A stretch of DNA of 54,528 bases, taken from assembly GCA_903873295.1 (NCBI GenBank), contig CAIQNV010000089.1, positions 1 to 54,528 on the forward strand, written 5' to 3'. The translations under genes and the position numbers were made by a program. The DNA is from an uncultured Elusimicrobia bacterium (GTDB lineage Bacteria; Elusimicrobiota; Elusimicrobia; Elusimicrobiales; UBA9959). Of this stretch, positions 18,524-21,565 are shown in pieces. Numbering within the stretch: the stretch's first letter is position 1; every line of letters begins with the position of its first letter. The notes under the pieces are model-generated. The model saw nothing but the letters and a program-made list of their open reading frames with translations. It was not told the DNA's origin and did not search any database.

Positions 18524-19129
18524 TTAAAAAGAGGCGACGAAGCGCAGCAGTTCGGGGAGCAGGACTTTCAGGGCCTGCGCCCGGTGACTGACGAGGTTTT
18601 TTTCCTCCTCCGAAAATTCCGCCAGCGTTACGGGGCCGCCGCCGACCTCGAACAGCGGATCGTAACCGAAGCCTTTAACGCCGCGCGTCGCACCGGTTAT
18701 CCTGCCTTCAAGTATCCCGCGCGAAATTTTAACGACGCCGGAAGGAGAAGACAGCGCCATGACGCAGGTAAAGCGCGCCAGGCGCTTTTCCGGCGGCAGG
18801 CCTTCAAGCGCGGAAAGCAGCCTGGCGTTGTTCTCCGCCGGGGAAGCTTTTTCTCCCGCATACCGGGCAGACCATACTCCCGGGCCGCCGTCCAGCGCGT
18901 CCACCTCAAGCCCGGTGTCGTCGGCCAGCGCGCAAAGGCCGGTAAAGCGCGCGGCGGCCAGCGCCTTTTTAACAGCGTTCTCCTCGAGCGTGGCGCCGTC
19001 CTCGTCCGGCGGACAGGCCCCGGAAAACTCGGAAAGAGCCTTCAGCGCGAACGGCAGCGCGGGAAGGATGGCGCGGATCTCCCCCAGCTTGTGAGGATTA
19101 AAAGTGGCGACGACCAGTATTTTCTGCAT
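18524..19129 (-). CDS. rdgB: XTP/dITP diphosphatase RdgB
   Basis: This 201-aa Ham1/RdgB enzyme hydrolyses non-canonical purine nucleoside triphosphates (dITP, XTP) to monophosphates and keeps them out of DNA. Features are ILVVATFNPHKLGEIR at the start, the ALADDTGLEVDALDGGPGVWSARYAG signature, ARFTCVMALSSPSG, and the C-terminal FGYDPLFEVGG and SHRAQALK motifs. Length is typical. It leads the long minus-strand operon through murC to the glycosyltransferase. Its ATG is only 15 bp from the divergent TPR gene ATG and has no ribosome binding site. Confidence 0.97.
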   Translation of the reverse strand: MQKILVVATFNPHKLGEIRAILPALPFALKALSEFSGACPPDEDGATLEENAVKKALAAARFTGLCALADDTGLEVDALDGGPGVWSARYAGEKASPAENNARLLSALEGLPPEKRLARFTCVMALSSPSGVVKISRGILEGRITGATRGVKGFGYDPLFEVGGGPVTLAEFSEEEKNLVSHRAQALKVLLPELLRFVASF

Positions 19130-19144
19130 TAAATATAATAAAAT
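19130..19144. promoter_or_regulatory. 15-bp divergent promoter core between rdgB and TPR gene
   Basis: The whole spacer between the two start codons is A/T only. On the plus strand TATAAT lies at 19134-19139 and ends 5 nt before the ATG at 19145. On the minus strand TATTAT lies at 19135-19140 and also ends 5 nt before the rdgB ATG (19129). Both transcripts would be leaderless, and any -35 elements would fall inside the opposing genes. Confidence 0.55.
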
Positions 19145-21565
19145 ATGTCCGTGGCGGAAAACTCTGCAAATCTTAACATTTTTGAAGGCGCCCCGGCCTC
19201 GTTCCGGGATGCCCTGCCGCTTTTTTCCGGCGTGGCCGGCACGGCGCTGCCGGTGCGGCAGGAGGCGGCCGGCCCGGCACAGCTATATACTCTCGCCTCC
19301 GTTTCGGAGGGAGGCCAGCCCGCCCTGCCGGCTTTCACGAGCGAAGAGCTGCTTATCCCCCCGCTTATCAGCAAGAGCCTGGCCGAGACCGCGGCGCTTT
19401 TCTTTCACGCCCCGGCCCATGAAATTTTTATTTTTAACCCCTGCCACCCGCAGTCCCGCTCGAACACAGTTCCCCTTAAAGCTTCCCGGCGCGACATTTC
19501 CCTGCTCGCCGGATTTCTCAAGACGGCCGGGAAAAATATACAAGCGGACCCTGCCCGCCTGGCCGCCGGGGAATTCGCGCTCGGGAACCTGCACGCGGCG
19601 CATTACCTCTATGCGGCGGCGGCGGCGAGAAATCCGGCTTCCCGCGCGCGCTTCCAACTGGGCGCCGTCCTTGTGGAGCTGGGCCTGCTGCAGGAAGCCT
19701 ACGACTCGCTCAAAGACGATACCGACCCCGAAGCTTTGCTTTGCCTGGCGGTGATCCATAGGAAGACCGGGAACACCGCCCTGGCGAGAAAAACCCTTTC
19801 CGCCCTCGGACAGGGCACGCAGATCGAAGAGCGCCGGGTGCTTGAGGCCGCCTGGCTTGACCTCGAGGAAGGGAAAGAGGAAGAGGCGGAAAAAGTGTTC
19901 AAACGGCTTTCGTCGTCGGCCTTCGATAAGGCGGAGGCGCTTTCCGGACTTGGCGCGGCCATGGCGAAAACGGCTTTCAGGACCAAAGACCGGGGCAGGC
20001 TCGCGGCCGCGGCCGCCTCGCTCAGGTCCGCGCTTTCCACCCCCTCGCCGGCTTCCGTACACATTTTTTTTCAGCTCGGGAATCTTTATTTCCGCTCGGG
20101 AGACGCGGCGCAGGCGGAGGCCTGCTACAGGCGTTCCGCGGCTTTGGCCCCGGCGGTACAGGCCCTGGCCAACCTGGCGCTTACGCTGATAAAAACAGGC
20201 AAGCAGTCCGAAGCCGCCGCGGTCACCGCGCAGGTGGCCCTTACCGACATCGCCTCGGCCAGACGCCTCGCGGCCGAGTTCCCGAAAGACAGCCTCGCCG
20301 GGCTCTTTCAACCGCAGGCGCAGGCGCCCAGCGTGATGTCTCAGCCCGCGCCCGCCGCACTGGCCGCCCCCTCCCCCGCGCCCGGCGTGACTCCCCAGCC
20401 TGCGCCGGCAGCTCCGCTGACCCCTGAGCCGGCCGCGGAACACGGCTCCGGCGCGGGAAAAAGCGACACCGGCCCGGATAAACTGGAGAACGCCGGCGGG
20501 AACTTCAAGTTCATAAACCCCTCGGCCACGCCCCCGCCCGCCCCGGCGGGGGAGGCGAGCCCGCTTTCCGCGGCTAAGCCGCAGGCGGCGTCCGTTTCAG
20601 GTAGAAAGCCCGGGGCCGCCGGCCCCGCGCCGGCGCCGCGTATCCAGTTCGAAACGGTGCGCGACGTAATGGCCTCGGCCTCGCAGCCCACCGAGGCCGA
20701 AAGCCGTAAAGACGATTTCATCTCGCGCGCCTTTACGCTGGCCTCCGCTCTTGAAGACGAACTCGGGCGCAAAATTTACTTTAACCTGGACGGGTTGAGC
20801 GAGGTGGAACGGAGGCTGCGGATTAAATTTATTAAGGCCGGATCCAGCCCGCAAGGAAACCTTGAGACGGTCAGGGACTGCGCGGCCTTCCTGTGCTATT
20901 TCCTTCAGGAGAGGCACAAGGGCCGCCTCCTCAAACTGACGGAGTTCGACCCCTGGGGCTGGCCTATGGTTTTCGAGCAGCCCGGACTGAAGGTTACCAC
21001 CTACCCGGTGCAGCGCGCCTGGCGCTTGCTCTGGGAAGAAACCGTCCCTGAACCGGGCTGGCTGACAAAATATTCCAACTGGGTCGCGGATAAGCTTAAG
21101 GCAACCTCCCCGCCTGTCTGCGGAGCGGCCGCGGCCCGCGCAAAAGCGCGGAGCCACCCGGAAAGGCTTATCGACGCGCAAACCGAACACAGGCGCATGC
21201 TGGTGCTGATCACTTCGCTGAGCGAAACCGCCCACATCGAGATAAGCCGCACGGGGCTGGCAAGGCTGGAGAGCGCGGTAAAAAGCAATTTCAGGCCGGA
21301 CATCCCTCCCTCGGCGGACGGGTGGAAGCTGCTGCGCTGCTACGGCCACCTGCTGGCCGCCATCCTGGCCAAGGACTTCAAGGCGGTCTGGTACAATGTA
21401 GACGGCGATGACGGCGGCTGGTCCATGCAGCTGCCCTGGAAAACCTTCGTCTTCCCCCTGGGGAAAATTTACAAGACGGCTTCCCTCCGCGACGATCTGG
21501 GCGCCTATTACGAAACCCTTCTCGGCGAGAAGCTCAGATACCAGTCAGGACCTAAGGCCGGCTAG
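19145..21565 (+). CDS. Cytoplasmic TPR protein with Ala/Pro-rich linker and unrecognised C-terminal domain
   Basis: This 806-aa protein has no signal peptide. Residues 1-140 form a mixed N-terminal domain. Residues 140-390 hold TPR-like helical repeats. Residues about 395-510 are a low-complexity linker rich in Pro, Ala and Gly. Residues about 520-806 form a compact C-terminal domain with conserved-looking aromatic motifs (FDPWGWPMVFEQ, YNVDGDDGGWSMQLPWKTF). I do not recognise that domain. The TPR part suggests a scaffold. It is divergent from rdgB and has no ribosome binding site, consistent with leaderless expression. Confidence 0.75.
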   Translation: MSVAENSANLNIFEGAPASFRDALPLFSGVAGTALPVRQEAAGPAQLYTLASVSEGGQPALPAFTSEELLIPPLISKSLAETAALFFHAPAHEIFIFNPCHPQSRSNTVPLKASRRDISLLAGFLKTAGKNIQADPARLAAGEFALGNLHAAHYLYAAAAARNPASRARFQLGAVLVELGLLQEAYDSLKDDTDPEALLCLAVIHRKTGNTALARKTLSALGQGTQIEERRVLEAAWLDLEEGKEEEAEKVFKRLSSSAFDKAEALSGLGAAMAKTAFRTKDRGRLAAAAASLRSALSTPSPASVHIFFQLGNLYFRSGDAAQAEACYRRSAALAPAVQALANLALTLIKTGKQSEAAAVTAQVALTDIASARRLAAEFPKDSLAGLFQPQAQAPSVMSQPAPAALAAPSPAPGVTPQPAPAAPLTPEPAAEHGSGAGKSDTGPDKLENAGGNFKFINPSATPPPAPAGEASPLSAAKPQAASVSGRKPGAAGPAPAPRIQFETVRDVMASASQPTEAESRKDDFISRAFTLASALEDELGRKIYFNLDGLSEVERRLRIKFIKAGSSPQGNLETVRDCAAFLCYFLQERHKGRLLKLTEFDPWGWPMVFEQPGLKVTTYPVQRAWRLLWEETVPEPGWLTKYSNWVADKLKATSPPVCGAAAARAKARSHPERLIDAQTEHRRMLVLITSLSETAHIEISRTGLARLESAVKSNFRPDIPPSADGWKLLRCYGHLLAAILAKDFKAVWYNVDGDDGGWSMQLPWKTFVFPLGKIYKTASLRDDLGAYYETLLGEKLRYQSGPKAG

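Follow-up and report, generated by a model that had tools for sequence, protein, structure and literature searches.

A compact promoter region between the divergent genes rdgB and a TPR-repeat gene in Elusimicrobiota, with a candidate rdgB promoter inside the opposing coding sequence

Divergent genes whose start codons nearly touch raise the question of where their promoters lie and whether both can be used at the same time. Such a pair, consisting of rdgB on the minus strand and a TPR-repeat gene on the plus strand, is found in a stretch of 54,528 nt (the window) from the 3.49 Mb draft genome of an uncultured Elusimicrobia bacterium. The ATG of rdgB (19129-19127, minus strand) and the first in-frame ATG of the TPR open reading frame (19145-19147, plus strand) enclose a spacer of 15 bp, TAAATATAATAAAAT (19130-19144), which consists of A and T only, as originally predicted. 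Each strand carries a hexamer ending 5 nt from its ATG, TATAAT on the plus strand (19134-19139) and TATTAT on the minus strand (19140-19135). Both had been read as -10 elements of leaderless genes, with -35 regions inside the opposite coding sequences. Comparison with relatives, the named ones being Elusimicrobia MAGs, indicates that the promoter region is real, compact and in part conserved, and that its details had been misread.

The rdgB protein matches PF01725 (Ham1) with 197 bits (cutoff 22.5) and TIGR00042 with 153.6 bits, above the curated cutoff of 145.35, which places it in the RdgB/HAM1 pyrophosphatase family. In the rdgB homologues found, the start codon is located at the same position. 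In the TPR protein as translated from 19145-21565, the repeats are confined to the middle part; the C-terminal region, at about residues 460-806, shows good conservation across the family but lacks any Pfam match. The order of the two genes is retained in all examined relatives whose contig extends far enough, and a TPR homologue located away from rdgB was not found. The predicted unusual compactness was borne out: the pair is the tightest of 32 divergent pairs in a 446-kb sample of the same genome, the next one having a distance of 37 bp, with gene starts called by script and hence approximate. At another divergent pair in this sample (G000:C49:27382-27460, 77 bp), a -10 of the leaderless type lies within a few nt of the ATG in both genes. 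The features of the rdgB/TPR locus are compiled in Table 1.

Table 1. Genes and putative promoter elements at the rdgB/TPR locus; positions refer to the window.
Feature	Position	Strand	Remarks
rdgB (RdgB/HAM1 non-canonical purine NTP pyrophosphatase)	18524..19129	-	First gene of the leftward gene run
TPR-repeat gene, corrected start GTG	19151..21565	+	Start codon aligned across relatives; TPR matches
Likely TPR -10 TAAAAT, 6 nt before GTG 19151; overlaps TATAAT 19134-19139	19139..19144	+	Conserved spacing; genome-wide 6-nt peak
TATTAT, mirroring the -10 on the plus strand; may be a secondary rdgB start	19135..19140	-	Present; near-start -10 not conserved
Extended -10 candidate for rdgB, TGTTAAGAT, hexamer TAAGAT 19175-19170	19170..19178	-	TGnTAnnAT conserved, enriched before first genes
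TPR codons 7-11, N-L-N-I-F, AAT CTT AAC ATT TTT, counted from GTG	19169..19183	+	Strongest synonymous constraint in the gene

The plus-strand motif is not a chance occurrence, as its position is conserved across the family. A TANA(A/G)T hexamer and the TPR N-terminus could both be located in 33 homologous loci; in 29 of them this hexamer ends 6 nt (n = 15) or 7 nt (n = 14) before the TPR start, and in the remaining four the distance is 10, 14, 14 and 2 nt. Across the loci, 8 to 274 nt separate the hexamer from rdgB. With a fixed spacing to TPR and a variable one to rdgB, the hexamer is assigned to the TPR gene. Within the genus of the window it is part of the conserved block AAATATAWTARAAT.

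The same alignments bear on the TPR start codon. The TPR homologues begin at a codon aligned with GTG 19151, which is GTG across the genus and ATG in a few members. In 14 of the 15 loci with the 6-nt spacing, the hexamer itself contains an in-frame stop (its TAG or TAA), therefore no TPR start is possible further upstream. In the window this stop is the TAA at 19139; ATG 19145 and GTG 19151 are both located downstream of it, and only the position of the GTG is conserved. The use of ATG 19145 as TPR start was thus rejected by the alignment in favour of the conserved start two codons downstream, and GTG 19151 is the likely start codon. Since the aligned start is usually this GTG, the likely -10 is TAAAAT and the spacer becomes 21 bp. 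With TAAAAT as -10, position +1 at the usual 7 nt coincides with the G of the GTG. GTG was found to equal ATG on leaderless mRNAs in mycobacteria, though it is weak in E. coli (PMC4633059).

These data support the A/T core as the promoter of the TPR gene, the mRNA of which probably begins, without a leader, at the GTG. The predicted leaderlessness of the TPR gene is therefore very probably right, while its start and the register of its -10 had probably been placed too far upstream. A consensus scan of the window for -35/-10 pairs reported no promoter at the spacer, and a recognisable -35 was found on neither strand. In some more distant relatives TTGACA is located 17 nt upstream of TATANA, as expected of a sigma-70-type promoter.

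Leaderless-type -10 elements are ordinary in this genome. In the 446-kb sample, a -10-like hexamer ends 3-9 nt before the start of 23 out of 172 likely first genes, compared to 7.4 in shuffled sequences, with a peak spacing of 6 nt and a Shine-Dalgarno match in 0 of the 23. Genome-wide, the pattern TATAATN3-7ATG occurs 148 times versus 64 times for the reversed pattern; GTG starts after TAWAAT are only in slight excess (119 versus 87 in the control). The double motif TATAATAGAAT is also present in front of two other genes (L097:683-693 = G000:C82:6582; G000:C82:37578), ending 6 nt from the ATG, and therefore looks like a recurring form of leaderless promoter. The TPR side resembles the leaderless TANNNT genes described by Zheng 2011 (PMC3160421) and Zhong 2025 (PMC12340547) in its conserved -10 about 6 nt before the start and in lacking a Shine-Dalgarno sequence, but here the start codon is mostly GTG. 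Elusimicrobiota are absent from the main text of both papers.

The minus-strand hexamer near the rdgB start behaves differently from its plus-strand counterpart: the position of the latter is kept in the relatives, whereas only 5 of 40 loci have, at the place suited to leaderless transcription of rdgB, a -10 that matches in at least 5 of 6 positions. The leaderless TANNNT pattern is thus not recovered on the rdgB side, and the leaderless rdgB proposed on the basis of TATTAT is not supported by conservation. In random 15-mers of A and T only, hexamers of at least 5/6 match occur near the start on both strands in 13% of cases; once TATAAT is fixed in such a spacer, a minus-strand hexamer of this quality appears in 50%. 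Because a mirror -10 is expected beside TATAAT in about every second case, the minus-strand hexamer is weak evidence by itself, and the doubling of hexamers largely reflects the symmetry of TATAAT.

A stronger candidate for the rdgB promoter was found within the TPR gene. Synonymous constraint in TPR codons 7-11 reaches 41.8 in a five-codon window, compared to a gene mean of 7.3 (sd 4.2) and 23.7 in the next separate window; these binomial figures ignore shared ancestry, and same-amino-acid codons elsewhere in the gene, which vary, served as control. The isoleucine codon in this stretch is ATT in 22 of 22 genus members, although ATT accounts for 14% of the Ile codons genome-wide. Synonymous constraint can also arise in other ways: codons near the gene start generally end in A or T in this genome, which explains part of the codon bias.

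On the minus strand these codons read AAAATGnTAnnAT, which contains an extended -10 pointing to rdgB, and TGnTAnnAT is found at this place in most relatives. Over 37 loci, G-14, T-12 and T-7 are each invariant (37/37), A-11 is kept in 35 and A-8 in 32, whereas substitutions fall mainly on -13, -10 and -9, the positions that are free, even where the amino acid changes. Before first genes TGnTAnnAT occurs 15 times, versus 2.9 in shuffled sequences and 6 for the reversed motif; before internal genes it was found once, without enrichment. The predicted rdgB start near 19163 would give a leader of about 34 nt in the window and of 31-141 nt (mostly 34-70) in the relatives. Some family members lack the codon element, and its loss does not follow spacer length consistently: it is present at some of the long spacers and missing at some of the short ones.

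Extended -10 promoters (TGnTATAAT) that function without a -35 are a known promoter type. The candidate shares with them the conserved TGn directly before a TANNAT hexamer and the lack of a visible -35. It differs in being embedded in the start of the coding sequence of a divergent neighbour, with A-rich sequence upstream of the TG.

Two other explanations were weighed against a promoter inside the TPR codons. As the original prediction implies, the A/T core could be a single symmetric bidirectional promoter with the overlapping -10 elements TATAAT and TATTAT, in which case rdgB transcription would begin at its own ATG or close to it. The two hexamers of the window indeed coincide reciprocally at their -7 and -11 positions, which places the predicted starts 16-18 bp apart, as in the commonest bidirectional promoters of E. 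coli and Salmonella (PMC10268837). Overlapping and opposed -10 elements with predicted starts within 7-25 bp, for which mutual exclusion is expected, define the bidirectional promoters described by Warman and Grainger (PMC12825309, PMC10268837). The motif TATAWTA, symmetric in this sense, is moreover kept in most genus members. However, the start that this arrangement would use for rdgB is not conserved, as seen from the 5 of 40 loci mentioned above, the symmetry is a consequence of the plus-strand -10 in any case, and the constrained TPR codons are left unexplained; a better rdgB candidate is located beyond the TPR start, in a face-to-face orientation. We regard a purely bidirectional core as rather unlikely.

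Alternatively, the constrained codons may act on the plus strand, as an unstructured A/U-rich early region that aids leaderless translation or as the site of a regulator, with the rdgB promoter elsewhere. A/T-ending codons are favoured early in general, slightly more so in leaderless-like genes, and the predicted fold leaves these codons unpaired; yet that fold is no weaker than those of shuffled sequences, nor did the two predicted 5' ends show RNA structure exceeding that of shuffled sequences. At TPR codon 2 the G/C-rich GCG predominates, and the constraint is limited to five later codons with particular bases, the free positions of which fit an extended -10 on the minus strand. Speaking against a regulator site, the element lacks palindromic symmetry. 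Its interpretation as a repeated regulatory motif was likewise rejected: TTAACATTTTT occurs in four copies in the genome, the other three in unrelated settings. A plus-strand role appears improbable to us, even more so than a purely bidirectional core.

We therefore lean, with moderate confidence, towards two sigma-70-type promoters that overlap face to face and not back to back, a leaderless one for TPR and an extended -10 one for rdgB inside the TPR gene. The A/T-rich gap would carry the TPR -10 (TAAAAT, within the conserved TATAWTARAAT), and the TPR mRNA would start at or next to GTG 19151. The rdgB gene run would be transcribed mainly from TGTTAAGAT in TPR codons 7-10 on the minus strand, with a start near 19163 and a short leader; further minus-strand starts may come from the symmetric A/T core. 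As far as can be read from the sequence, one putative transcription start is thus located inside the neighbouring gene and one translation start probably further downstream than in the original prediction, both of which that prediction had itself named as grounds against it.

The predicted starts at 19151 (plus strand) and 19163 (minus strand) face each other, and the transcripts would overlap by about 13 nt (19151-19163). Each polymerase would transcribe through the promoter of the other. As the DNA stretches covered by the two polymerases would overlap as well, initiation in one direction is expected to exclude the other transiently; we infer that mutual exclusion between the two promoters is likely, and competitive expression may follow from it. 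In the bidirectional promoters of E. coli opposed polymerases cannot bind together and exclusion is documented; there, opposed promoters interfered little at basal activity, and interference emerged upon activation of one side (PMC12825309). An excludon was considered and rejected, as it requires a long antisense overlap of divergent transcripts, compared to about 13 nt between the predicted starts here. The kind of arrangement is known, but the version found here is unusually tight.

At the sequence level, the locus provides evidence of leaderless-type promoters in Elusimicrobiota; our literature search found no start-site map for this phylum. Both the start codon and the promoter register of the TPR gene were corrected by comparison, and reading one genome alone would have erred on both. 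Tentatively, the rdgB run of Elusimicrobiota may be driven from the first codons of its divergent neighbour, opposing the leaderless promoter of the latter, in a conserved switch in which each transcript crosses the promoter of the other. The locus is also a clear example of codons in one gene that seem to be constrained by a promoter belonging to the neighbouring gene, and start prediction as well as tests for codon selection would therefore need to consider the opposite strand.
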